Assembly (NCBI RefSeq): GCF_014204915.1
Contig: NZ_JACHMH010000001.1
Coordinates: 1,550,001 to 1,614,000 of the forward strand
DNA: 64,000 bases
Source of the DNA: Crossiella cryophila
Lineage (GTDB): Bacteria; Actinomycetota; Actinomycetes; Mycobacteriales; Pseudonocardiaceae
Direction: 5' to 3'
Part shown: positions 8,844-30,143 of the stretch, piece by piece
Numbering within the stretch: position 1 is the stretch's first letter
How the letters are laid out: each line of letters opens with the position of its first letter
Made by a program: the position numbers and the translations under genes
The notes under the pieces: generated by a model
What the model saw: only the letters and a program-made list of their open reading frames with translations
Told to the model about the DNA's origin: nothing
Databases searched by the model: none

Positions 8844-9809
8844 ATGGCCGGAAACTCCAGGCGCAAGGGTGCCATGCGCAACGCTGGCTCGAAGAAGGGC
8901 GCCGTTGTCGGCTCCGGCGGCCAGCGGAAGAAGGGCTTGCAGGGCAAGGGACCCACGCCGCGAGCCACCGAGCGCGAGCACCACCCCGCCGCGCGCAAGG
9001 CCGCCGCGGCGACCAAGGCCGAGCAGGCCAGGGCGCGGCGCAAGGGCGAGGCGACCAACTCCGAGTACGTGGCCGGGCGCAACCCGGTGGTGGAGTGCCT
9101 GCGTGCGGGGGTGCCGTCCACGGCGCTGTACGTGGCGCTGGGCATCGAGACCGACGAGCGGGTGACCGAGGCGGTGCGGATGGCCGCCGACCGGGGCATC
9201 TCGGTGCTGGAGGTCTCCCGGCCGGAGCTGGACAAGCTCACCGGCGGCGCCATGCACCAGGGCATGTCCCTGCAGATCCCGCCGTTCAGCTACAGCCACC
9301 CGGACGACCTGCTGCAGATCGGCCGCGACTCCGGCGTGCCGCCGCTGCTGGTGGCCCTGGACGGGGTGACCGACCCGCGCAACCTGGGTGCGGTGATCCG
9401 CTCCGCGGCCGCCTTCGGCGCGCACGGCGTGGTGGTGCCGCAGCGGCGCAGCGCGAGCATGACCGCCGTCGCCTGGCGCACCAGCGCGGGCACCGCGGCC
9501 CGGCTGCCGGTGGCCATCGCGGTCAACCTCAACCGCACGCTCAAGGACTGGGCCACCGCGGGCCTGATGGTGGTCGGCCTGGACGCCGACGCCACCATGA
9601 ACATCGACGAGCTGGAACTGGCCACCGGTCCGCTGGTGGTCGTGGTCGGCTCCGAGGGCCGCGGCCTGTCCCACCTGGTGAAGAAGCACTGCGACGCCAC
9701 CATCGGCATCCCGATGGCGCCGGGCGTGGAATCGCTCAACGCCTCGGTGGCCGCCGGAGTGGTGCTGGCCGAGGTCGCCCGTCGCCGCCGGGCGGCAAGC
9801 CGGATCTGA
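8844..9809 (+). CDS. rlmB: 23S rRNA (guanosine-2'-O-)-methyltransferase, SpoU/TrmH family
   Basis: 321 residues. A basic, Ala/Lys-rich N-terminal extension of ~70 residues ([12 protein letters not shown]...ARRKGEATN) typical of actinobacterial RlmB precedes the L30e-like substrate-binding domain starting at [15 protein letters not shown]. The SPOUT knot is shown by motif 1 [20 protein letters not shown], motif 2 [16 protein letters not shown] and motif 3 [27 protein letters not shown]. It methylates G2251 (E. coli numbering) in the 23S P-loop using SAM. The four-base gap to cysS and the same strand make a two-gene operon, a widely conserved actinobacterial pair. Confidence 0.93.
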
Positions 9810-9868
9810 CCATCCGGACCTGGTTGCTCCGATAGGGTCAGCGGGCTGCACCGTGACCCGAGGTAGAG

Positions 9869-11305
9869 ATGTCCTTCGTCAGCCCGCTGTTCCTGTGGTA
9901 CTTCATGCCGCTCACCCTGGCGGCGTTGCTCGTGCTGCCGCGAACCTGGCGCAACGGCGTGATCGCGGTGGCCAGCCTGGTCTTCTACGCCACCGGGTCC
10001 GGCTCGTCCACGCTGTTGCTGCTGGCCTGCATCGTGGTCAACTTCCTGGCCGGGCCGTGGCTGCAGCCCAAGGAGCACGAGCCGGAGCCGGTGGCCAAGC
10101 GGCGCCGGTACCTGCTGATCGGCGTGGTCGGCTTCGACCTGGCGATCCTGCTGGTCTGGAAGTACCTGGGCTTCGCCACCGAGCAACTGGCTAGCCTGGC
10201 CAGGCTGTTCGGCGGCGACTTCCCGGTGACCCACCTGACGCTGGTCATCGGCATCTCCTTCTTCACCTTCCACCACATCTCCTACGTGGTGGACATCTAC
10301 CGCGGTGAGCGGCCGGCACTGCGCGACCCGGTCTCCTTCATCACCTACATCGCGATGTTCCCGCAGCTCGCGGCCGGTCCGATCGTGCGCTACCGGGAGA
10401 TCTCCGAGCAGCTCCCGCAGCTGCGCACGCACCGGCTGGACGACATCGCCAGCGGCTTCCCGCGCTTCGCCCTCGGCCTGACCAAGAAGGTCGTGATCGC
10501 GGACTCGCTGGCGCCGATGGTGGACGCCTGCTTCGCCACCCCGCCGGACAAGATGACCTTCGCGGTCGCCTGGCTGGGCGCGCTGGGCTTCACCCTGCAG
10601 CTCTACTTCGACTTCTCCGGCTACTCCGACATGGCCATCGGCCTCGGCCGGATGCTCGGCTTCCGGCTGCCGGAGAACTTCGCCCGCCCGTACTCCTCGG
10701 TCACCGTGACCGAGTTCTGGCGGCGCTGGCACATGTCGCTGTCCCGGTGGTTCCGCGACTACGTCTACATCCCGCTCGGCGGCAACCGGCACGGCACCGC
10801 GCACACCTACCGGAACCTGGCGATCGTGTTCGTGCTGACCGGTTTCTGGCACGGCGCGAACTGGACCTACCTGGTCTGGGGCGTCTACCACGGCATCCTG
10901 CTGGTGATCGAACGCGCCCGCCGCTGGGACCGCCCGCCTGCCTCTGTCGGCCACCAGCTCGGCCGCCGCGCGCTCACCCTGCTGCTGGTGATCATCGGCT
11001 GGATCTTCTTCAAGTCCACCACCCTGGGCGCGGCGTTCGCCATGCTGGGCAACATGTTCCTGCCGGACTTCACCGGCCTCACCGACAGCGTCGCCGCCGC
11101 CCTGACCAACCAGCGCCTGCTGCTCCTGCTGCTGGCCCTGGTGATCGTCTTCCTGCCGGCCCGCCCGCTGGGCCCGTACCTGGAGTCGACGCGCTCGCCG
11201 CAGGCCACCGCGCTGCGCATCACGGTGCTGACCGTCGGCCTGGCCTACTCCGCGATCCTGGTCGCCACCGGCACCTTCTCCCCGTTCCTGTATTACCAGT
11301 TCTGA
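9869..11305 (+). CDS. MBOAT-family membrane O-acyltransferase (AlgI/DltB-like)
   Basis: 478 residues with about ten hydrophobic segments. Family signatures are QLYFDFSGYSDMAIGLGRMLG, FWRRWHMSLSRWFRDYVYIPLGGNR and the invariant His in LTGFWHGANWTYLVWGVYHG. AlgI-type proteins pass acetyl groups from cytoplasmic donors across the membrane to partner transferases that modify a polysaccharide outside. A matching AlgJ/AlgX-like partner is encoded at 18033-19364, and the neighbours are a GT2 synthase and another acyltransferase, which points to O-acetylation of an exported glycan. ATG 9869 follows GAGGTAGAG. A hairpin after the stop separates it from the GT2 gene, so regulation may differ. Confidence 0.9.
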   Translation: MSFVSPLFLWYFMPLTLAALLVLPRTWRNGVIAVASLVFYATGSGSSTLLLLACIVVNFLAGPWLQPKEHEPEPVAKRRRYLLIGVVGFDLAILLVWKYLGFATEQLASLARLFGGDFPVTHLTLVIGISFFTFHHISYVVDIYRGERPALRDPVSFITYIAMFPQLAAGPIVRYREISEQLPQLRTHRLDDIASGFPRFALGLTKKVVIADSLAPMVDACFATPPDKMTFAVAWLGALGFTLQLYFDFSGYSDMAIGLGRMLGFRLPENFARPYSSVTVTEFWRRWHMSLSRWFRDYVYIPLGGNRHGTAHTYRNLAIVFVLTGFWHGANWTYLVWGVYHGILLVIERARRWDRPPASVGHQLGRRALTLLLVIIGWIFFKSTTLGAAFAMLGNMFLPDFTGLTDSVAAALTNQRLLLLLLALVIVFLPARPLGPYLESTRSPQATALRITVLTVGLAYSAILVATGTFSPFLYYQF

Positions 11306-11311
11306 TCCGGC

Positions 11312-11340
11312 CGCGGTGAGCAAGAACACCGCGAGCTTTT
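11312..11340 (+). terminator. Hairpin terminator after the MBOAT gene
   Basis: CGCGGTG (11312-11318) and CACCGCG (11327-11333) form a 7-bp stem with an 8-base loop, followed by AGCTTTT, a short T run. Reads as a factor-independent terminator on the plus strand. Confidence 0.6.
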
Positions 11341-11392
11341 CGCCCCGGTGACCTCTGCCACGAGCAACGTTGGGAATTTTTCTGAATCGTTC

Positions 11393-11408
11393 AATGGTCT
11401 ATACCATT
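11393..11408. promoter_or_regulatory. DasR-type (dre-like) operator before the GT2 synthase
   Basis: AATGGTCTATACCATT matches the DasR/NagR consensus ACTGGTCTAGACCAGT at 13 of 16 positions and is nearly palindromic. It lies 48 bases before the GT2 start codon. DasR is the GntR-family repressor of streptomycetes and relatives that releases DNA when glucosamine-6-phosphate or GlcNAc-6-phosphate accumulates, so the synthase operon may respond to GlcNAc supply. Confidence 0.6.
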
Positions 11409-11455
11409 CGGAGCTGGGTCCCACCGGACCCGCCGCCATCGCTTCGGAAGAGACC

Positions 11456-13165
11456 ATGTCGCACAGCACGCTCGTCCCCGTTCCGACCACGATCGCCGAC
11501 CTACCGCCCGACCCCGCCGCGCTGCTGCCGCGGCCACCAGGTGACGAGGAGGTGTACGGGTACTTCGGGCCGCAGCGGCGCTGGGTGCTGGTGCTGTCCT
11601 CGCTCTCCTTCGTCTTCACCGCGGTCGCGTTGTTCCAGTTCTCGGTGCGCACGCCCTGGCTGTGGGTCTTCCTCGGGGTGCTCGTGCTCAACGTCGCCGG
11701 AGTGGTGATGTCGTTGCTGGACAACGGCAATCCGCGCCGGGTCAGCCGGGATCAGCACGATCTGCTGGTCCGGGTGTGGCGGCCCGCGGTGCTGCAGAGT
11801 GTGGATGTGTACCTGCCGACCTGTGGTGAGCCGATCCCGGTGCTGCGCAACGCCTACGAGCACGTGTCCCGGCTGGGCTGGGACGGGCGGCTGCGGATCT
11901 GGGTGCTCGATGACGGGGCGCGCCGGGAGGTGCGCGAGCTGGCCGCGGAGTTCGGGTTCGACTACGTGGTGCGGCCCGATCGCGGGCACCTGAAGAAGGC
12001 CGGCAACCTCAACCACGCGCTGACCGTCTCCGCCGGTGAGCTGATCGTCATCCTGGACGCGGACTTCTGCCCTCGGCCGGATCTGCTGGTGCACCTGGCG
12101 CCCTACTTCGAGGACGCGGGAGTGGGCATCGTGCAGACCCCGCAGTGCTTCGCCACCGACGCCTCGATGAACTGGCTGCAGCGGGCCGCGGGCGCGGCGC
12201 AGGAGTGGTTCTTCCGCTGGATCCAGCCCTCCCGGGACGCCAATGACGCGGCGATCTGCTGTGGCAGCAACGCGATGTACCGGCGGGCCGCGATCGAGGA
12301 GGTCGGCGGGTTCGCCAAGCTGGACCACAGCGAGGACATGTACACCGGACTGGCCCTGCTCGGCCGCGGCTACCGGACCCAGTACCTGCCGTTATTGCTG
12401 GCCAAGGGGTTGTCCCCGGATACCGTGCCGGCCTTCGTCAGTCAGCAGTACCGCTGGGCCATGGGCAACCTGCACCTGCTCACCGCACGCGAGGTGGTGC
12501 GGGTCGGCGCCGGTCGCCGGTTGCTGCTGTCGTACTGGAACGGCGTGGTCAGCTACCTGCTGACCGCGGTGAACGTCTTCGCCGCGCCGCTGCCGCCACT
12601 GATCATGCTGGCCCTCACCCCAGGCGAGGTCCGGCCCTGGCACATGCTGCCGTTCCTGCTGCCGGTGTGGACCTGGCTGGTGCTGATCCCGGCGGTCTCC
12701 CGCACCCGGTGGAGCATGCAGGTGATCCGGGCGCACCAGCTGGTCGGGTTCGCCAGTGCGGCCGCGGTCTGGCACACGCTGCGCGGACGCGGCGCGAGCT
12801 GGGTGCCGACCGGGGTGAGCCAGGGGCGTGGCGGACTCGCGCGCCGGGTGAGCCTGATCGCCTTCACCTGGCTGGGAATCACCACGCTGGCGGGCTGGAT
12901 CGGTTTCGCCGCCGGGGTTTTCGCCTATGGGATCGCGAACTACTGGGCGCTGGCGGGGTATCTGCTGGTGCAGGGCTACCTGAGCGTGCCGTTGCTGGTG
13001 GACCTGGCGAACTCGCTGTGGCGTCCGGACCGGCAGCCGATCGGGGCCGGGAACCGTTGGGCGGCAACGGCCGCGCACCGGAGCTGGCCGGAACTGCTGG
13101 CGATCACGGTGGCACTGGGCGTGTTCGGGCTGCTCGCCTCCGGTCTGGTGGACGGGATCCTGTGA
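11456..13165 (+). CDS. Cellulose synthase-like processive glycosyltransferase (GT2)
   Basis: 569 residues from ATG 11456, preceded by GGAAGAG; the longer frame from 11348 would run over the dre-like site. Two TM helices (about 43-61 and 66-88) precede the cytosolic GT-A domain: nucleotide-binding DDG at 152-154, DAD at 201-203, the TPQ acceptor motif at 228-230, catalytic SED in HSEDMYTG at 292-294 (usually TED) and QQYRW at 330-334, the processive-synthase signature. Five or more C-terminal helices make the translocation channel. No PilZ domain is present, so c-di-GMP control as in BcsA is not expected. It should polymerise a beta-linked glycan from UDP-sugar and extrude it; sugar and linkage unknown. 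Its TGA overlaps the ATG of the next gene by one base. Confidence 0.9.
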   Translation: MSHSTLVPVPTTIADLPPDPAALLPRPPGDEEVYGYFGPQRRWVLVLSSLSFVFTAVALFQFSVRTPWLWVFLGVLVLNVAGVVMSLLDNGNPRRVSRDQHDLLVRVWRPAVLQSVDVYLPTCGEPIPVLRNAYEHVSRLGWDGRLRIWVLDDGARREVRELAAEFGFDYVVRPDRGHLKKAGNLNHALTVSAGELIVILDADFCPRPDLLVHLAPYFEDAGVGIVQTPQCFATDASMNWLQRAAGAAQEWFFRWIQPSRDANDAAICCGSNAMYRRAAIEEVGGFAKLDHSEDMYTGLALLGRGYRTQYLPLLLAKGLSPDTVPAFVSQQYRWAMGNLHLLTAREVVRVGAGRRLLLSYWNGVVSYLLTAVNVFAAPLPPLIMLALTPGEVRPWHMLPFLLPVWTWLVLIPAVSRTRWSMQVIRAHQLVGFASAAAVWHTLRGRGASWVPTGVSQGRGGLARRVSLIAFTWLGITTLAGWIGFAAGVFAYGIANYWALAGYLLVQGYLSVPLLVDLANSLWRPDRQPIGAGNRWAATAAHRSWPELLAITVALGVFGLLASGLVDGIL

Positions 13166-15915
13166 TGACGGGTTACCACCCTGGCCGCCGGGGCGATATC
13201 GAGGGTCTGCGCGCGGTGGCCGTGCTGACCGTGCTGGGTTTCCACGCGAGCGTGCCGTTCTTCGGCGGCGGGTTCGTCGGCGTGGACGTCTTCTTCGTCA
13301 TCTCCGGGTTCCTGATCACCGGCTTGCTGCTGGCCGACATCAGCACCGCGGGCGGCTTCTCGCTCAAGGAGTTCTACGCGCGCCGGGCCCGGCGGATCCT
13401 GCCCGCGGCCGGGGTGGTGCTGGTCGTGGTGGCGCTGCTGAGCTGGCTGCTGCTGCCGCCGTTGCGGGCCAAGGACGTCGCCTACGACGTGCTCTTCGGC
13501 GCGCTGAACCTGGCGAACTGGCGGTTCGTGGCCAACCAGACCGACTACCTGGCCGCGGCCCGCGACCACAGTCCGGTGCTGCACTTCTGGTCGCTGGGCG
13601 TGGAGGAGCAGTTCTACCTGGTCTGGGCGCCGCTGCTGCTCGGCCTGGCCGTGCTGGCCCGCAAACTCGGGCGGCCGGCGGTGCCGGTGATCGCCGGGGT
13701 GATCGGGCTGCTGACGGTCGGCTCGTTCCTGCTGTCGGTGCGCTGGACGGCGAGTTCGGAACCCCTGGCCTACCTGGGTTCGCCGACCCGCGCCTGGGAG
13801 TTCGGCCTCGGCGCGCTGGCCGCGATCGCGCTGCCCTGGCTGCGGTTGCCGGGACTGGCGCGCTGGGTGCTCGGGCTGCTGGGCGCGGGCGCGATCGGTG
13901 CGGCCACCGTGCTGTTCAGCTCGGCGACCGCCTTCCCCGGCTCCGCCGCGCTGCTGCCGGTGCTGGGCACGGTCGCGGTGATCATGGCCCAGGGCAACGG
14001 GATCGGTGGTTTCCTGAGCACCAGGCCGATGCGTGCGATGGGGCGGCTGTCCTTCTCCTGGTACCTGTGGCACTGGCCGGTGCTGGTCTTCGCCGAGGCG
14101 GTCGCCGGAGAGCTGGCCTGGCCGGTGAAGCTGGCGCTGGTGCTGGCCGCGGCCGGACCGGCCTGGCTGACCGCGAGACTGGTGGAGCGGCCGGTGCGGT
14201 TCTCCCCGACCATCTCGGCACTGCCGGTGCGCGGGCTGGCCATCGGGGTGACCGCGGTGCTGCTGCCGGTGGCCGCCGGACTGGTGACCGGCAGTGCGGC
14301 GCAGCGGATGATGGGCGGCGGGATCACCGAGCTGGCCGCCACCCTGCCACTGGCCGCCGCCGACGGCCCCGACCTGCTCACCGGCCCGGCCCCCGGGCTG
14401 ACCCCGCCGGTGGACCTGGCCCGCGCCGACGTGCCGCCGGTGCCGGGCTGCGAGCTGTTCCCGGCCGAGCTGACCGGGCCGGAGTGCCTCTTCGGCGATC
14501 CGGCCGCGCCGCAGGTGCTGCTGATCGGCGATTCCCATGCCAGTCAATGGTTTCCGGCGATCCGGCAGCTGGCCGAGCGGCGGGGCTGGGCGGTGCGGGT
14601 GCGGGTCAAGCAGGGCTGTCCGCTGCCTGAGCTGACCGTGTACAACCCGACCCTGGGCCGGGCCTACACCGAATGCGACACCTGGCGGAAGGACACCCTC
14701 GACCAGGTCGCCGGGACCAGGCCGAAACTGGTCTTCCTGGCCTCGCTCAACCAGTACACCGCGGACCAGGAGCTGCTCGCCGCGGCCTGGCAGCGCAGCC
14801 TGGACCGGCTGGCCGCCACCGGCGCGCCACTGGTCTACCTGCGGGACACCCCGTTGCCCGGCAAGGACATCCCGGCCTGCGTGTCCGCGGACCCGACGGC
14901 CTGCGATTTCCCGCGCAGCCAGGCGTTGCGGCCCGATCCACTGGTCAACCGGGCCGGACTGTCCACAGTGGACATGAACGCGGTGCTGTGCCCCGGCGAG
15001 AGCTGCCCTGCGGTGCGCCAGGGCGTGCTGCTCTACCGGGACGATTCGCACCTGACCGCCACCGCGGTCGCGCTACTCGGTCGCCGGGTGGAGAAAACCC
15101 TTCAGCGCCAAGGACTTCTGCCGCCGGTGTGGCAGCAGGTCTTCCGCGAGGACTTCGACGGCCCGGAGGGCTCCGCACCCGATCCGCAGCGCTGGCAGCA
15201 CGCCACCGGCACCTGCCACCCTGGCTGCCCGGCCCCGCAGTGGGGCACCGGCGAGATCGAGACCATGACCGACTCGACCGACAACGTGCGGCACAACGGC
15301 AAGGGACAGCTGGCCATCACCCCGATCCGGGCCAACGGCCAGTGGACTTCGGGCAGGCTGGAATCCCGGCGCACCGACTTCCGCGCGCCCGCCGGCGGCC
15401 TGCTCCGGGTGGAGGCGGTGCTCAAGCTGCCCGAGGTGGGCAAGGCCGACGGCGCCGGGTACTGGCCGGCGTTCTGGCTGCTCGGCGACGGGGTGCGGCG
15501 GGACAACACCGGCTGGCCGGGCGTCGGCGAGATCGACGTGCTGGAGTCGGTGAACGGCCGCGAGTCGGTGTTCGGCACCTTCCACTGCGGCGCGATGCCC
15601 GGCGGCCCGTGCCAGGAGCCGATGGGCCTGGGCAGCGGGGAAACCCCGTGTGTGGACTGCCAGCGGGACTTCCACCGGTACGCGATCGAACTGGACCAGG
15701 CCAAGGGCGAGATCCGCTGGTACCTGGACGGGCGGCAGACCTTCGCGATCACCCGCGACCGGGTGGGCGAACCGGCCTGGCGGCAGGCCACCGACCACGG
15801 GTTCTTCCTGATCCTCAACGTGGCCATCGGCGGCCGCCTGGCCGGGGATCCCAACGCCGCCACCGCCTCCGGCCGGCCGATGCTGATCGACTCGGTGACC
15901 GTGGCTACCGGCTGA
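13165..15915 (+). CDS. Acyltransferase-3 / SGNH / GH16 triple fusion protein
   Basis: 916 residues, about 250 longer than ordinary OafA-type acyltransferases. Residues 8-375 are a ten-helix acyltransferase-3 domain (GDIEGLRAVAVLTVLGFHAS with the catalytic His; GFVGVDVFFVISGFLITGLL; HFWSLGVEEQFYLVW). Residues 425-650 are an extracytoplasmic SGNH domain: GDSHAS at 455-460 and the Asp/His pair in DDSHL at 626-630. Residues 655-916 are a GH16 beta-glycanase fold with the catalytic motif GEIDVLE (nucleophile Glu789, Asp791, acid/base Glu794) and GYWPAFWLLG before it. Expected role: acylate a glycan outside the membrane and cut or transglycosylate it. Translational coupling to the GT2 gene (TGATG) implies that the substrate is the GT2 product. 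The GH16 part is intact, not a relic. Confidence 0.88.
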   Translation: MTGYHPGRRGDIEGLRAVAVLTVLGFHASVPFFGGGFVGVDVFFVISGFLITGLLLADISTAGGFSLKEFYARRARRILPAAGVVLVVVALLSWLLLPPLRAKDVAYDVLFGALNLANWRFVANQTDYLAAARDHSPVLHFWSLGVEEQFYLVWAPLLLGLAVLARKLGRPAVPVIAGVIGLLTVGSFLLSVRWTASSEPLAYLGSPTRAWEFGLGALAAIALPWLRLPGLARWVLGLLGAGAIGAATVLFSSATAFPGSAALLPVLGTVAVIMAQGNGIGGFLSTRPMRAMGRLSFSWYLWHWPVLVFAEAVAGELAWPVKLALVLAAAGPAWLTARLVERPVRFSPTISALPVRGLAIGVTAVLLPVAAGLVTGSAAQRMMGGGITELAATLPLAAADGPDLLTGPAPGLTPPVDLARADVPPVPGCELFPAELTGPECLFGDPAAPQVLLIGDSHASQWFPAIRQLAERRGWAVRVRVKQGCPLPELTVYNPTLGRAYTECDTWRKDTLDQVAGTRPKLVFLASLNQYTADQELLAAAWQRSLDRLAATGAPLVYLRDTPLPGKDIPACVSADPTACDFPRSQALRPDPLVNRAGLSTVDMNAVLCPGESCPAVRQGVLLYRDDSHLTATAVALLGRRVEKTLQRQGLLPPVWQQVFREDFDGPEGSAPDPQRWQHATGTCHPGCPAPQWGTGEIETMTDSTDNVRHNGKGQLAITPIRANGQWTSGRLESRRTDFRAPAGGLLRVEAVLKLPEVGKADGAGYWPAFWLLGDGVRRDNTGWPGVGEIDVLESVNGRESVFGTFHCGAMPGGPCQEPMGLGSGETPCVDCQRDFHRYAIELDQAKGEIRWYLDGRQTFAITRDRVGEPAWRQATDHGFFLILNVAIGGRLAGDPNAATASGRPMLIDSVTVATG

Positions 15916-17407
15916 GCGCGCGCCAGCGGGCCGTCAGCGCCTTGATGGCCCGCCGGGCGGCGGCCGGACTCACCTGCTCGGGCAGGTCGATGGTCAGCTT
16001 GGCCGCGGCCTCGGCCAGCGCCCGGTGCCCGGCCGTGCCGAGCAGGGTGGCCAGGTCGATCCGCTGCAGCAGCTTCTTGGTGATCGGGCGCTTGGCGTCC
16101 CAGAACACCAGCGCGGACAACAGGGTCGCGGTGGTCCGGCCGCGCAGCAACGCGGTCAGCACCGCGGCCTCGGCCAGGTCGGCGCAGGAGAGGAAGTAGC
16201 AGGTGTCATCCAGCAGCACCGGCCGGTCCCCGATTGGCGCGACCAGCCGGAACTCCACCTTCTTGTACATCCCGGAGATGGCCACCTTGTACGGCGCGAA
16301 GGTGTACTCGCCGATGCCGAACACGCTGAACCGCGGCCGGGCGCGGTAGATCGCCGACCGCCGGTTGTCCAGCGCCTCGGCGTGCGCGAGCAGGTAGCGC
16401 CACAGCTTCGGCGCGGTGCCGGCCAGCGCGGCGGTGTCCTCGCCGAGGCTGCGCTGCGGCAGCACCAGCCTGCGCCGGGCGGTGGTGGTGTTGCCGTGCA
16501 CCAGGTCCGAACTCTTGAGCAGCGGGTAGAGGTGCTCGTCCTCGATCGGCGCCGGACCGGTCAGCTCCATCACCGCGGTGGCGTCGTGCTTGACCCCCTG
16601 CCGCCACTCCAGCTGGCAGGCCCCGTCCGCCTCGGCGGTCCGGTCGTACGCCTCGACATCGGCCACCAGCTTGCCGCGGACCAGGCCGAAATGCCGGGAA
16701 GGCGTTGCCGCGTCGAGGGAATCGTAGAGCGCGCAGGTGTACTCGCCTGGCGTGTCACCGAGCCGGAGGGTGAGCAGACCGGCGTCCACGTTGGCCCCGA
16801 ACCAGCGGTGCGAGTCGATCAGCCGCAGGGTGGCCGCCTCGACCGGGATCTCCTGCTCGGCGCAGTGCCCGAGGATGTTGCGGGCCACCTGGGTCTTGCA
16901 CAGCAGCGCGATGGTCGGCCGGTGCGCGCGCAGTTCGCCGAGCAGCTTCTGCCAGATGTACTCGGCCACGTCGAAGTTGGACTCACCGGTGCGCGCGGCC
17001 ATCCCCGGCCGGTTCCTGGTGTTGGCCTTGACCGGCACGTTCGCCGACCCGAACCGGGTCAGATCGGCCATGGTCACCCAGGGCGGATTGCCCAGCACCA
17101 GCAGTTCGCCCCCGGCCACCCAGGGCAGGTCGGCGCCCAGGTCCAGGCCGAACACGCACTGCTCGCGGATGTCACCGTGCGCCCTGGCCAGTTCGGCGTG
17201 CGCGGGCTGGATCTCCACCCCGATCCGTTGCGGCACACCCAGTTCGGCCGCGGCGGCCAGGAAACTGCCGGTGCCGCAGGTCGGTTCCAGCACCTTGCGG
17301 TAGTCCCGCGGCGGCAGCGTGGCCACCACCGCGCGAGCCAGCGTCAGCGGGGTCTGGAAGTCACCGAACTCGTTGTTGGGCAAGAAGGGTCCGCCATTCT
17401 CGGTCAA
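15905..17407 (-). CDS. Solitary N6-adenine DNA methyltransferase
   Basis: 500 residues from a TTG at 17405-17407. SAM-binding motif I is EPTCGTGSFL (41-50), preceded by the NNEFGDFQTP motif (11-20) common in TaqI-like and type I/IIG methylases; catalytic motif IV is NPPW (107-110), identifying an amino-methyltransferase acting on adenine N6. The C-terminal ~300 residues would form the target-recognition region and include IYRARPRFSVFGIGEYTFAPYKVAISG, typical of Eco57I/type IIG-like enzymes. No nuclease domain or neighbouring restriction gene is visible, so it is an orphan or its partner lies elsewhere. The start is uncertain: it overlaps the end of the upstream GNAT gene by 47 bp. Its 3' end overlaps the fusion gene by 11 bp. 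Confidence 0.82.
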   Translation of the reverse strand: MTENGGPFLPNNEFGDFQTPLTLARAVVATLPPRDYRKVLEPTCGTGSFLAAAAELGVPQRIGVEIQPAHAELARAHGDIREQCVFGLDLGADLPWVAGGELLVLGNPPWVTMADLTRFGSANVPVKANTRNRPGMAARTGESNFDVAEYIWQKLLGELRAHRPTIALLCKTQVARNILGHCAEQEIPVEAATLRLIDSHRWFGANVDAGLLTLRLGDTPGEYTCALYDSLDAATPSRHFGLVRGKLVADVEAYDRTAEADGACQLEWRQGVKHDATAVMELTGPAPIEDEHLYPLLKSSDLVHGNTTTARRRLVLPQRSLGEDTAALAGTAPKLWRYLLAHAEALDNRRSAIYRARPRFSVFGIGEYTFAPYKVAISGMYKKVEFRLVAPIGDRPVLLDDTCYFLSCADLAEAAVLTALLRGRTTATLLSALVFWDAKRPITKKLLQRIDLATLLGTAGHRALAEAAAKLTIDLPEQVSPAAARRAIKALTARWRALSR

Positions 17408-17924
17408 GCAGACCGTAGTGCACGTCGTCGGCGAAACCGTCCCCTTCCCACCACGCCTCGCGGTGCCGTCCCTCCTCGGTGAACCCGGCGGCCAGCGCCG
17501 CCTTCTGCATCGGCACGTTGCGCACCCCGGTGACCAGCCGGACCCGGTGCAGCCCGAGCACGAAGAAGGCGTAGTGGCAGACCACCCGCAGCGCGTCGGT
17601 GGACAGCCCGCGGCCGCGGAAGTCCGACCGCAGCCCGATGCCGATCTCGCCGTTGCGGTGGTGGTAGTCGATCGCCCACAACGTCACCGACCCGGCCAGC
17701 TCCCCGTTCTCCTCGATCGCGAACGTCGCGCTCTTGGGCAGCGGTTTGGACCAGTGGTCATCCACCGGCTCCCAGCTGGCCAGCACCGTCTCCATCGGCA
17801 CCGGGAACCAGGGGGCGGAGGAACTGAGCATGAAACCGGGCACGTCCGCGCGTTGCTCGGCGAAGAGCACCGCGATGTCTTCCTTGGTGCAGGGCCGGAG
17901 CACGACCTTCTCGCCACGCAGCAT
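17361..17924 (-). CDS. GNAT acetyltransferase, RimJ/RimL type
   Basis: 187 residues. The N-terminus LRGEKVVLRPCTKEDIAVL and the acetyl-CoA pyrophosphate loop GIGLRSDFRGRGLSTDALRVVCHYAF (Q/RxxGxG/A) define the RimJ/RimL branch, followed by LHRVRLVTGVRNVPMQKAALAAGFTEEGRHREAWW. These cytosolic enzymes acetylate protein N-termini or small-molecule amines. It precedes the DNA methyltransferase on the minus strand and overlaps it by 47 bp, suggesting one transcript, though no functional connection is known. It is divergent from the AlgJ-like gene, with 108 bp between the starts. Confidence 0.85.
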   Translation of the reverse strand: MLRGEKVVLRPCTKEDIAVLFAEQRADVPGFMLSSSAPWFPVPMETVLASWEPVDDHWSKPLPKSATFAIEENGELAGSVTLWAIDYHHRNGEIGIGLRSDFRGRGLSTDALRVVCHYAFFVLGLHRVRLVTGVRNVPMQKAALAAGFTEEGRHREAWWEGDGFADDVHYGLLDREWRTLLAQQRVR

Positions 17925-18032
17925 TGGCCGAGGCTAACTCCGGCGACCGGTCGTGGCCTCCTATTTTCCGGCCGGACACCGGGCCGGGTGGATCGGCGAA
18001 CACCGACCGTGCCCGCCGGTTACCGTGGTCGG

Positions 18033-19364
18033 GTGAGTGTCCAGGACAACCCGCAGCACCGGCTGCCCGGCGTGCACGAGGCGCTGCTGCCCCGTGAGCA
18101 CGCGCTGCACCGGCCGCGGCACGGCCACCGCCAGCGCACCGCGCTGACCACGGCCGGGATCTTCTTCCTGACCCCGCTGCTGGTCTGGGTGCTGGGCGCC
18201 CGGCCGGAGGCGTTCGAGAACCGGCCGCTGGCGGAGTTCCCGAGCCTGGGCGACGGCTGGGGCTTCTTCACCGGCCTGTCCCAGTGGGCCACCGACCACC
18301 TGGTCTTCCGGCAGGACGCGGTGCGCGCCGCCGACGGGATCAGCGAGGGGCTCTTCGGCGAGTCCGCCCCACTGGACCGCGGCCAGCAGCAGGGCCCGGT
18401 GCCGGGCAACCAGACCAGCTCGCCGCAGCCGCAGCCGAACGCGCCGGACCAGCCGGTCCCGGTGGACCAGCAGACGGTGCTGCCCGGCTTCACCAAGGTC
18501 ATCCAGGGCAAGGACGACTGGCTCTACTTCGGCCTGGACATGCAGGCCAAGTGCGTGCCGGACAAGCCGCTGGACGAGGTGCTCCTCCGGCTGCGCAAGC
18601 TGCGTGCGGTGGTGGAGTCCTCCGGCCGGGCCTTCATCCTGATGATCCCGCCGGACAAGAGCACCATGGAGCCGGGCTACCTGCCGGAGGCCTACGGCGG
18701 CAAGGACTGCGCGAACGCGGCTGGCACCGCGTTCTGGAACCGGTTCAGCGTCGAACCCGGCGTGCTGGACCTGCGGCCCATCCTGAACGAGACCAAGCAG
18801 CGGCTGGGACGGCCGGTCTACCACAAGGACGACACGCACTGGAGTGACGAAGGCGCGGTCTCCGCGGTGCGCTCACTCAGCGAGCGGCTCAACCCAGGGG
18901 TCACCAAGCCCTGGTCGATCTCGCTCGGCGTGCCCTACAGCGGGCCAGGCGACCTGGCGCTGATGTCCGGCAAGCGGGGCAAGGTGGCCGGGTTCCGGTA
19001 CGAGATCCGCCCGGACGGCGCCGAGGACCGGGTGAAGTCGCTGGACAGCAAGTTCACCGAGCCGGAGCGGGTGACCTCCAAGGAGATCCCCGGTGTGGTC
19101 GGCGGCCAGGTGATGATCTTCGGCGACTCGTTCCTGGAGTCCACCGGCCGGTACCTGCACGCCGCGCTGGCCAACTTCACCGCCTACCACTACGGCCACG
19201 CGGTCAAGGATCCGGCGCGCTCGGGCCGGCTGGCCGCCAACAACGACGTGGTCGTCTTCGAGGCCGTCGAGCGCAACCTCACCAGCGGCACCGCGGGCTT
19301 CCTCAGCAACGAGTTCATCGACGCCTTCGGCAAGGAACTGGCGGCAAAACCCCGGCCCAGGTAG
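18033..19364 (+). CDS. AlgJ/AlgX-like SGNH O-acetyltransferase, membrane anchored
   Basis: 443 residues from GTG 18033 (the open frame extends upstream but across the divergent promoter region). A basic cytoplasmic N-terminus and one TM helix (about 38-55) are followed by a Gln/Pro-rich spacer (110-148) and the catalytic domain beginning at GKDDWLYFGLDMQ (159-171). The family catalytic residues are visible: DTHW at 267-270 (Asp-His dyad) and GDSF with the Ser nucleophile at 364-367. AlgJ/AlgX/PatB-type proteins take acetyl from an MBOAT partner and place it on an exported polysaccharide. The MBOAT at 9869-11305 and the GT2 synthase are the obvious partners. Confidence 0.85.
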   Translation: MSVQDNPQHRLPGVHEALLPREHALHRPRHGHRQRTALTTAGIFFLTPLLVWVLGARPEAFENRPLAEFPSLGDGWGFFTGLSQWATDHLVFRQDAVRAADGISEGLFGESAPLDRGQQQGPVPGNQTSSPQPQPNAPDQPVPVDQQTVLPGFTKVIQGKDDWLYFGLDMQAKCVPDKPLDEVLLRLRKLRAVVESSGRAFILMIPPDKSTMEPGYLPEAYGGKDCANAAGTAFWNRFSVEPGVLDLRPILNETKQRLGRPVYHKDDTHWSDEGAVSAVRSLSERLNPGVTKPWSISLGVPYSGPGDLALMSGKRGKVAGFRYEIRPDGAEDRVKSLDSKFTEPERVTSKEIPGVVGGQVMIFGDSFLESTGRYLHAALANFTAYHYGHAVKDPARSGRLAANNDVVVFEAVERNLTSGTAGFLSNEFIDAFGKELAAKPRPR

Positions 19365-19435
19365 GGGAAAGTCCCCAGGCGGTTCGGGGGCTCAGACCTG
19401 GTGTGCGCGCCGGAGTGGCCCGGCAGGCTGGGCGT

Positions 19436-20602
19436 ATGAAGATCACTGGGGTGAAGGCGGTCGCCGCGGTCGGCGCGGCGGTCGTGCTGGCCGGGCTGCC
19501 GATGGCGGCGCAGGCAGGCGAATCGGGCCGGGGGACGCTGTTGTCGGCGACCTCGGTCGGTGGGGTCGAGGCGACGGCGATGCCGGGGTACCTGGCCAGG
19601 TTCAACCTGTCCTCGCCGCTGGCCACCCGCGGGGTGGACGGGTTCCGGATCGAGTACAAAACCGTTGACGCGCAAGGGAAACCCACCACGGCGACCGGGC
19701 TGGTGGCGGTGCCGCGGGGAGCGGGGCGGGAGCTGAACGCGGTCACCTGGTTGCACGGCACCCAGGTCTACCGGGGTGAGCAGGCATCGGTGCGGGCCGA
19801 GAGCGGGGACCGGGCGACCAGCTACCTGTTCGCCTCGGCCGGGAACCTGGCGGTCGCGCCGGACTACCTGGGGCTGGGGCAGGGCGCGGGGTACCACCCG
19901 TACATGCAGAACGGCCCGCTGATCACCGCGAGCGCCGACGCGGTGCGCGCGGCCCGGACGCTGGTGCGGCGGCAGGGGATCGCGGTGGACCGGCGGTTGC
20001 TGGTGACCGGGTTCTCCCAGGGTGGGTCGGGGGCGATGGCCTTCGGGCAGGCGTTGTAGCAGGGGCGGGTGCCGGGGCTGGGGGTGCGGGCGATCGCGGC
20101 GGTCAGCGGGCCGTACGACTTCCCGGCCGCGGTGACCGACGCGCTGGCGGGCAACGTCAAGAACTCAGTGGCCTACCTCGGGTACGCGGTGACCTCCTGG
20201 CAGCGGCTGCACCACCTCTACGACGACCCGGCGAAGGTCTTCCAGAAGCCGGAGCTGGCCGCGTTGTTCGACGGGCACACCCCGCCCCAGGAGATGTTCC
20301 CGAAGCTGCCGGGCAGGCTGGATGAGTTCTTCACGCCGGAGTTCCTGGACCGGCTGCGCAACCCGGAACCGGCACTGCGGGCGATCCTGGCCAGGGAGGG
20401 CACCAGCTGCCAGTGGCGGCCCAGGGTGCCGGTGACCCTGTTCGCGGCCACCGGCGACCAGGACGTGGCCTTCCGGCACAGCGAGACCTGTTCGCGGCAG
20501 AGCGGGGCGCCGGTGGTCAACCTCGGCGGCGTGTCGCACAACAGCTCGGCGCGGCTGGCCGCGGTTCAGACCGTGGCGGACTTCGCCCGGTTCAGCCGGT
20601 AA
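19436..20602 (+). pseudogene. Secreted alpha/beta-hydrolase (lipase-like) interrupted by an amber codon
   Basis: One continuous frame of 388 codons is broken by TAG at 20057-20059. The first part starts at ATG 19436 with a signal peptide (MKITGVKAVAAVGAAVVLAG, then MAAQAGES cleavage region) and contains the nucleophile elbow GFSQGGSGAM about 15 residues before the stop. The second part resumes in frame (QGRVPGLGVRAIAAVSGPYDF) and carries the acid VTLFAATGDQDVAF and His GGVSHNSS of the triad. TAG would be CAG (Gln) after one base change, and the codon before is Leu, the one after Gln. It resembles secretory lipases and S9-like hydrolases. Either a recent nonsense mutation, a sequencing error or stop-codon readthrough. 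Its end overlaps the znuB end by 37 bp. Confidence 0.75.
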
Positions 20603-28926: not shown

Positions 28927-28942
28927 GATGGTCTAAACCAAT
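28927..28942. promoter_or_regulatory. Dre-like palindrome between two LacI genes
   Basis: GATGGTCTAAACCAAT keeps the TGGTCTA-ACCA core of DasR sites (12 of 16 positions). It is 100 bases before the second LacI gene. GGTTCTGAACC at 29016-29026, nearer the start, is a separate palindrome that could be an autoregulatory LacI site. Confidence 0.45.
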
Positions 28943-29042
28943 CTGATCAGGGGTCACTCGAATGAGCTGGTCTTTCCTGGCTCTGAACACAGCTTGGTCA
29001 CCCAGGCTTCACTAGGTGGTTCTGAACCGTTACGGTCACTTC

Positions 29043-30143
29043 ATGGCGCGGTCTTTGAACGCGCGGCGCCCCGCGACACTGGCGTCGCTGGCAGCAGAAC
29101 TCGGGGTCTCCCGCACAACGGTCTCCAACGCCTACAACCGGCCGGACCAGCTCTCGCCGGAACTGCGGCGCAGGGTGCTGGAAACAGCCCGCAGGCTGGG
29201 CTATCCGGGGCCGGACCCGGTGGCGCGCTCACTGCGCACCCGCAAGGCGGGCGCGGTCGGGCTGCTGCTCACCGAGAACCTCTCCTACGCCTTCCGCGAC
29301 CCAGCGGCCATCGCCTTCCTCGAAGGACTGGCGCTGGCCTGCGAGGACGCCGGCACCGGGCTGATGCTGGTGCCCGCGAGCCCCGAGCGCGAGGACGTGG
29401 CCGCGGTGCACCGGGCCGGGGTGGACGGCTTCGTCGTCTACTCGGTGCCCGATGACGACCCGCACCTGGCCGCGGTGCTGGAGCGCCCGGTGCCCACCGT
29501 GGTCTGCGACCAGCCCGAGATCGGCACCGTGGACCGGGTCGGCATCGACGACCGCGGCGCGATGGGCCGGATGGCCAGGCACCTGATCGAACTGGGCCAC
29601 CGCCGGATCGGCGTGATCTGCATGCGGCTGGCCCGCGATCGCAACGACAGCTTCGTCCCGGTGCACCGCCAGCACGAGGCGCACTTCCACGTGCAGCGCG
29701 CCCGGCTGGAGGCGCTGGCCACCGAGTTCACCTCGGCAGGCGTGGACTGGACCGGCGTGCCGGTGGTGGAGCGCTTCGACCACACCATCGCCTCCGGCTC
29801 CACCGCGGCCGCCCAGCTGCTCGACCGCGATCCGGAGATCACCGCGATCATCTGCACCTCCGACATCCTCGGACTGGGTGCGCTGGCCGAGGCGCAGCGG
29901 CGTGGGCTGCGGGTGCCGCAGGACCTGACCGTGACCGGTTTCGACGGCATCCCGGAGGCCGAGCGCCTCGGACTGACCACGGTCCGCCAGCCGGTGCTGG
30001 AGAAGGGCAGGGCCGCGGGCCGGTTGCTGCTGGACACGGTGGACCCCGGCAGGCCGCGCACGGTCACCCTGGACACCGAACTGATCGTGGGCACCAGCTC
30101 GGGCGCGCCTAAGCCAGCCGCTCAGCAGTGGTACGGCCCCTGA
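29043..30143 (+). CDS. LacI-family transcription regulator
   Basis: 366 residues from ATG 29043. Helix-turn-helix TLASLAAELGVSRTTVSNAYNRPDQLS near the N-terminus, then the effector domain (GAVGLLLTENLSYAFRDPAAIAFLEG, HLIELGHRRIGVICMRL, ITAIICTSDILGLGALAEAQRRGL, TVTGFDGIPEAERLGLTTVRQP). The TVSNAYNRP recognition helix differs from the sugar-repressor TVSRVLN type, so it should bind another operator class. No dedicated target gene is adjacent; its 3' end overlaps the pentapeptide gene by 35 bp. Confidence 0.85.
   Translation: MARSLNARRPATLASLAAELGVSRTTVSNAYNRPDQLSPELRRRVLETARRLGYPGPDPVARSLRTRKAGAVGLLLTENLSYAFRDPAAIAFLEGLALACEDAGTGLMLVPASPEREDVAAVHRAGVDGFVVYSVPDDDPHLAAVLERPVPTVVCDQPEIGTVDRVGIDDRGAMGRMARHLIELGHRRIGVICMRLARDRNDSFVPVHRQHEAHFHVQRARLEALATEFTSAGVDWTGVPVVERFDHTIASGSTAAAQLLDRDPEITAIICTSDILGLGALAEAQRRGLRVPQDLTVTGFDGIPEAERLGLTTVRQPVLEKGRAAGRLLLDTVDPGRPRTVTLDTELIVGTSSGAPKPAAQQWYGP

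Follow-up and report, generated by a model that had tools for sequence, protein, structure and literature searches.

A putative two-gene module for an O-acylated surface beta-glycan in Crossiella cryophila and other actinomycetes

Layout of the locus

The window analysed here is a stretch of 64,000 nucleotides from Crossiella cryophila (G000:C1:1550001-1614000, part of a 10.06 Mb genome), and our subject is a pair of overlapping genes within it, one encoding a processive glycosyltransferase of family 2 (GT2) and the other a protein in which an AT3 acyltransferase, an SGNH domain and a family 16 glycoside hydrolase (GH16) are fused (Table 1). A sequence-only reading of the same DNA had joined these two genes with an MBOAT gene and an AlgX/AlgJ-like gene on either side into one exported-glycan system. 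Most of what it described is borne out. The GT2 motifs DDG, DAD, SED (within HSED) and QQYRW are all present, the GT2 stop codon (13163-13165) overlaps the ATG of the fusion at 13165 by one base, Pfam and phmmer recover all three domains of the fusion, and a DasR-type palindrome stands before the GT2 gene, as it also does in relatives. The MBOAT and AlgX-like genes were correctly placed, but the latter does not adjoin the fusion: two minus-strand genes, for a methyltransferase and a GNAT protein, separate them, which rules out a single operon of GT2, the fusion and the AlgX-like gene. The chosen GT2 start is the ATG at 11456; with the alternative in-frame GTG at 11348 the palindrome would fall inside the gene.

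Table 1. Features of the locus, with positions in the window.
Feature	Position	Strand	Remarks
rlmB-like gene	8844-9809	+	presumably rlmB
MBOAT	9869-11305	+	PF03062, 1.1e-34; C-terminus FLYYQF; judged not a module member
dre-like palindrome AATGGTCTATACCATT, candidate DasR operator	11393-11408	strandless	in the MBOAT-GT2 gap
GT2 processive polysaccharide synthase, BcsA-like	11456-13165	+	PF13632/PF00535; start inferred
AT3-SGNH-GH16 fusion	13165-15915	+	916 amino acids
AT3 (Acyl_transf_3) membrane domain	13195-14157	+	residues 11-331, Pfam
SGNH domain	14476-15093	+	residues 438-643, Pfam
GH16 endo-1,3-beta-glucanase-like domain	15121-15909	+	residues about 653-915
Type II DNA methyltransferase-like gene	15905-17407	-	in the gap between fusion and AlgX-like gene; not a module member
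GNAT acetyltransferase	17361-17924	-	not a module member
AlgX/AlgJ-like protein (DDTHW, GDSF)	18033-19364	+	PF16822, 1.6e-15; judged not a module member

The synthase and its fused partner

The GT2 protein carries the D, DxD, (T/S)ED and QxxRW motifs of processive beta-glycan synthases together with a BcsA-like fold with channel helices; its predicted structure (pLDDT 82, pTM 0.81) matches BcsA best (TMq about 0.6), along with other processive synthases. It shares 97% identity with the GT2 of Crossiella sp. S99.2 and 88% with that of Crossiella sp. SN42. The PilZ domain expected of the cellulose synthase BcsA gave no Pfam match in GT2, and the cellulose-synthase (CelA) and NodC models reach only 173 of the 699 bits and 76 of the 550 bits set as their cut-offs. 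In an alignment counted by hand against PMC6821405 (papers are cited here by PMC number), two channel positions resemble CrdS, with Gln at the QxPH/Q site and Gln at the Asn298 site. Filing the protein as BcsA, CrdS, CslA or MatB was considered and is unsupported by Pfam, model scores, alignment and locus comparison.

In the fusion, both the AT3 and the SGNH domain are present with their catalytic Ser, Asp and His, and these two assignments rest on Pfam. The Pfam score of the GH16 part is barely at the cut-off (22.1 against 22); the domain nevertheless has the ExDxxE motif and is a close homologue of named endo-1,3-beta-glucanases, with a phmmer match of 1.1e-78 to the endo-1,3-beta-glucanase 3dgt. 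The structure predicted for the whole protein (pLDDT 79, pTM 0.47) leaves the placement of the domains unsure, and the 50 structural matches listed for it all lie on the GH16 part, the best again being 3dgt (48% identity, TMt 0.87). When the window protein was aligned with those of 32 loci chosen from the 51 fused loci described below, AT3 His27, the SGNH residues GDSH 455-458, D626 and H629, and GH16 E789, D791 and E794 were invariant in all 33 sequences. The NCBIfam SucT model matches the fusion at 1.1e-68, yet with 232 of 1275 bits, and separate GH16 paralogues, 49% identical, are encoded elsewhere in the same genome.

The GT2-fusion module among relatives

We looked for parts of the window genes in 83 loci, namely the best 80 of 314 GT2 relatives in named genomes and three from a phylum-wide sample, one of which (L180) may duplicate one of the 80; four loci (L103, L147, L179, L180) run into a contig or locus end. 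AT3 lies downstream of GT2 in 78 of the 83, and in 51 of these 78 GH16 follows in the AT3 frame, a count that includes L155, in which GH16 is truncated and its catalytic motif absent. In two more loci, L114 and L128, which come from a Streptacidiphilus and a Kitasatospora, the frame of the fusion is broken, by decay or a sequencing error, and they are counted as fused only in the tree and operator counts (53 instead of 51). A split form occurs in 10 loci, where GH16 is its own gene directly behind AT3-SGNH; all 10 of these proteins have a lipobox-like Cys, read by eye, and a GE(I/V/L)DxxE motif. Their hosts are Longispora, Solihabitans, Catelliglobosispora, two Sinosporangium, two Streptosporangium, two Nonomuraea and one Streptomyces. 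Whether through fusion or through the lipobox-like signal, the glucanase would thus be anchored to the membrane on its outer side. In two further loci (L173, L179) a divergent GH16-like gene (31-33%) lies upstream on the opposite strand.

Mapped onto a tree of the GT2 proteins, the fused state requires 5 changes and the split state 3; this tree was quickly built and has long branches, and nothing was rested on the exact placement of Crossiella. Clustering of the neighbours in 66 loci (L102-L167) returned GT2 in 60, the AT3 protein in 50 and the next commonest family in 16, of which the 12 listed are all Streptomyces. The distribution is sparse. GT2 has matches at E <= 1e-80 in 5 of the 396 genomes sampled across the phylum, with the module type only in this genome and in G164 (60% identity), while a search of the family Pseudonocardiaceae (E <= 1e-60) found GT2 in all five genus members and in none of 31 other genomes; the named-genome search nonetheless places it in two further members of this family, Solihabitans and Actinocrispum. 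Judged by gene content, GT2 and the fusion form a patchily distributed, conserved two-gene actinomycete module.

A sister group of the GT2 proteins pairs with a family 26 glycoside hydrolase (GH26), and one of its members (G053) with AT3-SGNH as well. GH26 was tested by homology for L009, L164, L181 and L182 and read by eye in L006-L008; that of L009 is nearest to endoglucanase H, which we take to be the lichenase CtLic26A, well ahead of mannanases. At L164 (Streptomyces sp. NRRL B-3428) a divergent GH26-like gene lies beside GT2, AT3-SGNH and a split GH16, so that both hydrolase types occur at one locus.

A candidate DasR operator upstream of GT2

The palindrome AATGGTCTATACCATT differs from the dre consensus A(G/C)TGGTCTAGACCA(G/C)T (PMC4398421) by three mismatches in the 16-base form and by one in the 12-base core. 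Within the window alone the signal is weak: two matches with up to three mismatches against 0.32 expected, and 3 of 100 shuffles also reach two. Among relatives it is pronounced, as a core of at least 10 of 12 bases lies within 500 bases upstream of GT2 in 58 of the 83 loci, where base shuffles predict about 1.1, and in 68 loci sites are found at 6.9 per kb between -150 and +30 but at 0.05 per kb in the rest of these loci. The identical palindrome occurs in three further Crossiella stretches (L195-L197). Sorted by class over all 83 loci, the site is found in 51 of 53 fused loci and in all four Streptomyces loci without GH16, but in none of the 10 split ones and in 3 of the remaining 16; five genera carry it, and several Streptomyces loci have two.

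In the genome of C. cryophila a relaxed pattern, TGGTNTANACCA, occurs at 13 places, against 3 for the reversed control. Six of the 12 other sites adjoin a pair of genes for a GntR-UTRA regulator and a sugar-binding protein, an amidohydrolase, a phosphoenolpyruvate-utilising enzyme, a GH18 and two LPMO_10 genes; from their domains we read the GntR-UTRA gene as dasR-like, the amidohydrolase as nagA-like and the phosphoenolpyruvate-utilising enzyme as ptsI-like. The locus therefore has what the sequence of a DasR-regulon member would display, a dre-like palindrome upstream and the same pattern at genes for N-acetylglucosamine (GlcNAc) and chitin use, and the GT2 and fusion genes are probably under DasR control and linked to GlcNAc.

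Among the individual sites, the dasR-like gene and the sugar-binding protein gene flank one at G000:C1:1635257, about 21 kb to the right of the window, and the nagA-like gene follows one at G000:C1:1628089, about 14 kb to its right. Inside the window, a second dre-like core, TGGTCTAAACCA (28929-28940), lies upstream of a LacI-type regulator (about 29016-30140, plus strand).

Mechanism and product

What comparison shows is a gene module with its co-inheritance, conserved active-site residues and a recurring operator-like site. With a probability that we put at roughly 55%, they belong to a two-gene, DasR-controlled module that makes an O-acylated surface beta-glycan, probably a glucan containing beta-1,3 linkages, with MBOAT and AlgX forming an independent pair. 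As its BcsA-like motifs and fold suggest, GT2 would polymerise a beta-glycan from a nucleotide sugar and thread the chain through its own membrane channel. By analogy with the AT3-SGNH mechanism, the AT3 domain would carry an acyl group across the membrane to SGNH, which would O-acylate the emerging chain, and GH16, outside on the same polypeptide, may cut or transglycosylate it. GlcNAc-derived signals would relieve DasR and turn the genes on. A beta-1,3-containing glucan, curdlan-like or mixed-linkage, is the likeliest product because GH16 resembles endo-1,3-beta-glucanases, and the affinity of the sister-group GH26 to endoglucanase H, taken together with GH16, suggests the same. Speculatively, the joining of glucanase and acyltransferase in one protein might tie chain cutting to acylation.

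A number of observations weigh against this interpretation. Where the gating-loop motif FxVTxK, fully conserved across BcsA, CrdS and BgsA (PMC6821405), is expected, the alignment has WVPTGV in GT2, and the Glu at position 299 is BcsA-like; the linkage residues are thus mixed, and the product of GT2 is not readable from its sequence. The GH16 domain is not indispensable, since AT3-SGNH occurs without fused GH16 in four Streptomyces loci (L108, L116, L121, L176) and in eight outgroup loci (Microbacteriaceae, Gordonia, Sanguibacter, Flavimobilis). Control by DasR would not be universal either, as the dre site is missing in all 10 split loci and in two fused ones (L112, L167). The other half of the 12 additional sites in this genome have no GlcNAc or chitin gene beside them and lie at a LacI gene, at an ABC permease gene, inside a sugar-binding protein gene and, in three cases, without an assigned neighbour. 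A promoter and terminator scan of positions 9700-19500 found nothing, no promoter-like site included. Finally, most fused loci belong to Streptomycetaceae, so the counts are not independent.

Several of these points bear on a different idea of the product, in which the polymer is not a plain beta-glucan (it might contain GlcNAc or be mannan-like) and GH16 grafts it onto another glycan by transglycosylation. The GlcNAc-type operator, the altered gating motif and the cellulose-synthase and NodC scores, both far below cut-off, are in keeping with such a polymer; on the other hand, the closest GH16 structures are beta-1,3-glucanases and the GH26 tested in the sister group is much nearer to endoglucanase H than to mannanases, and we regard this idea as unlikely. 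We see even less prospect for a reading in which GH16 is an offensive enzyme directed at fungal beta-1,3-glucan and co-induced through DasR with chitinases and lytic polysaccharide monooxygenases, the GT2 product being merely an adhesive or holdfast. The endo-1,3-beta-glucanases that are its closest solved relatives, and the dre-like sites next to GH18 and LPMO genes in this genome, would fit an attack on fungi, but the GH16 of the module is apparently held at the membrane, fused or with its lipobox-like signal, beside a synthase and an acyltransferase, and the genome has the separate GH16 paralogues noted above.

The flanking MBOAT and AlgX-like genes

Each of the flanking genes was found in 31 of the 60 genomes searched, in every case within the family. 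Of the 36 family genomes 30 have the two together, and GT2 is missing from 25 of these 30; among the remaining six, MBOAT occurs alone in one (a 74% complete genome), AlgX alone in another (86% complete), and four have neither. Outside Crossiella, 25 family genomes have both genes, and linkage was studied in the 11 of them in which the two lie within 11 kb; MBOAT follows rlmB in 10 of these 11 stretches without GT2, and AlgX lies between 10 bases and 10.5 kb from it. In the other non-Crossiella genomes the distance is 15 and 19 kb (G018 and G021), and in the remaining 12 the two genes are on different contigs or more than 300 kb apart. Among 30 loci, of which 29 were readable, the MBOAT C-terminus is FLYYQF in 28 and FLYNQF in one, in line with the C-terminal tyrosine hexapeptide described for the MBOAT of MBOAT-SGNH pairs (PMC12148441), and the AlgX alignments keep D-x-HW and DSF in all 30. 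The flanking genes thus have both hallmarks of such a pair, the Tyr hexapeptide and the Asp/His and Ser of the SGNH partner, and they look like a family-wide working pair that would acylate another envelope polymer.

In relatives carrying GT2 outside the genus, the flanking genes are scarce. Neither MBOAT nor AlgX was found at 60 bits or more in any of 81 non-Crossiella loci, with flanks of up to 8 kb on each side and shorter ones for some, and of 20 genomes from elsewhere with the GT2-AT3 pair, three of them without GH16 (L108, L169, L172), AlgX was found in two and MBOAT in three; L104 is not part of this set. Within Crossiella, all five genomes searched share the order MBOAT, GT2-fusion, AlgX, although in G001 about 10.7 kb separate MBOAT from GT2, and we infer that GT2 and the fusion were inserted between the two other genes in this genus. 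The expectation that the four genes would be neighbours in relatives thus holds within the genus and fails beyond it. Of the single glycan system proposed from the sequence, GT2 and the fusion survive as a module and MBOAT and AlgX drop out as members, and acylation by two routes loses its footing, as MBOAT and AlgX are not co-inherited with GT2 outside the genus. A four-gene system was consequently rejected on the gene content of relatives, and although the gene order in the genus and the acetylation of cellulose by MBOAT/SGNH pairs in other bacteria (PMC12148441, PMC7710045) speak for a Crossiella-specific version in which the four proteins work on a single glycan through both the MBOAT/AlgX and the AT3-SGNH route, the family genomes that have the pair and lack GT2, its position behind rlmB, the spacing in G001 and its rarity beside GT2-AT3 make that version very doubtful.

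The methyltransferase and GNAT genes sit between the fusion and AlgX in four other Crossiella genomes too (L100, L101, L196, L197), and the methyltransferase matches MTase_II in PADLOC at 2e-106. Beyond the AlgX-like gene, an open frame at 19403-20602 (plus strand), which we read as alpha/beta-hydrolase-like, has one in-frame stop midway and is a broken gene or a sequencing error; neither of its halves matched in a Pfam scan.

Comparison with known systems

Among the closest known systems are the clostridial cellulose operon CcsZABHI and the Wss system for acetylated cellulose of Pseudomonas, which likewise combine a GT2 with a dedicated extracytoplasmic O-acyltransferase and a glycanase (PMC7710045, PMC12148441). 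Acylation would run through AT3-SGNH in the module and through MBOAT-SGNH in Ccs and Wss; the glycanase is GH16 here, in the fused form on one polypeptide with the acyltransferase, and GH5 there. The module has no PilZ match, no further partner among its commonly recurring neighbours and a DasR-type operator, and the MBOAT and SGNH/DHHW pair that is co-inherited with the synthase in Ccs and Wss is not co-inherited with it here.

With the CslA/GlxA system of Streptomyces the module shares an actinomycete GT2 of the cellulose-synthase kind, but a Pfam scan of the neighbouring genes found no GlxA-type copper oxidase beside the window GT2. MatAB, which makes poly-N-acetylglucosamine in Streptomyces, is also an actinomycete synthase-dependent glycan system with an extracellular tailoring domain (PMC5972031); the window GT2 has no polysaccharide deacetylase domain, and the deacetylase-GT2 fusion found at L216 is encoded separately, with 26% identity. 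The distinctness from both systems that had been read from the window is upheld: of three module-bearing Streptomycetaceae genomes, two hold GlxA-flanked GT2s (three such proteins in these two Streptomyces genomes, with 28-36% core identity to the window GT2) and one the deacetylase-GT2, all at separate loci and 26-36% identical.

The AT3-SGNH acyltransferases OafB, OatA and SucT have the same two domains and conserved catalytic residues, to which the fusion adds a C-terminal GH16 and the coupling to a synthase gene; hydrolase fusions of AT3 are not mentioned in the available parts of PMC9558356 and PMC9833829, which treat the AT3-SGNH mechanism. The curdlan synthase CrdS and the mixed-linkage synthases BgsA and RiGT2 are, like the window protein, GT2 beta-glucan synthases or candidates for such, and some of its channel residues are CrdS-like, but position 299 (Glu) and the gating motif differ from CrdS and BgsA in the alignment against PMC6821405. 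No description of the module was found among the titles and abstract openings listed by searches of an open-access library, subscription papers and preprints being outside its scope.

Implications

In Pseudonocardiaceae, the MBOAT-AlgX pair is now set apart from the GT2-fusion module, and because the three functions occur both fused and split, their partnership can be tested in easily grown genera. For Streptomyces and its relatives, the module is a candidate source of a synthase-dependent glycan in addition to those of CslA and MatAB, and its operator connects it with the GlcNAc regulator. Tentatively, and at somewhat less than an even chance, it may represent a third class of synthase-dependent glycan in actinomycetes beside CslA/GlxA and MatAB, an O-acylated, beta-1,3-containing glucan (curdlan-like or mixed-linkage) made, acylated and trimmed by a two-protein membrane machine that GlcNAc switches on through DasR, which would serve as a coat when the cells feed on chitin or fungal remains.

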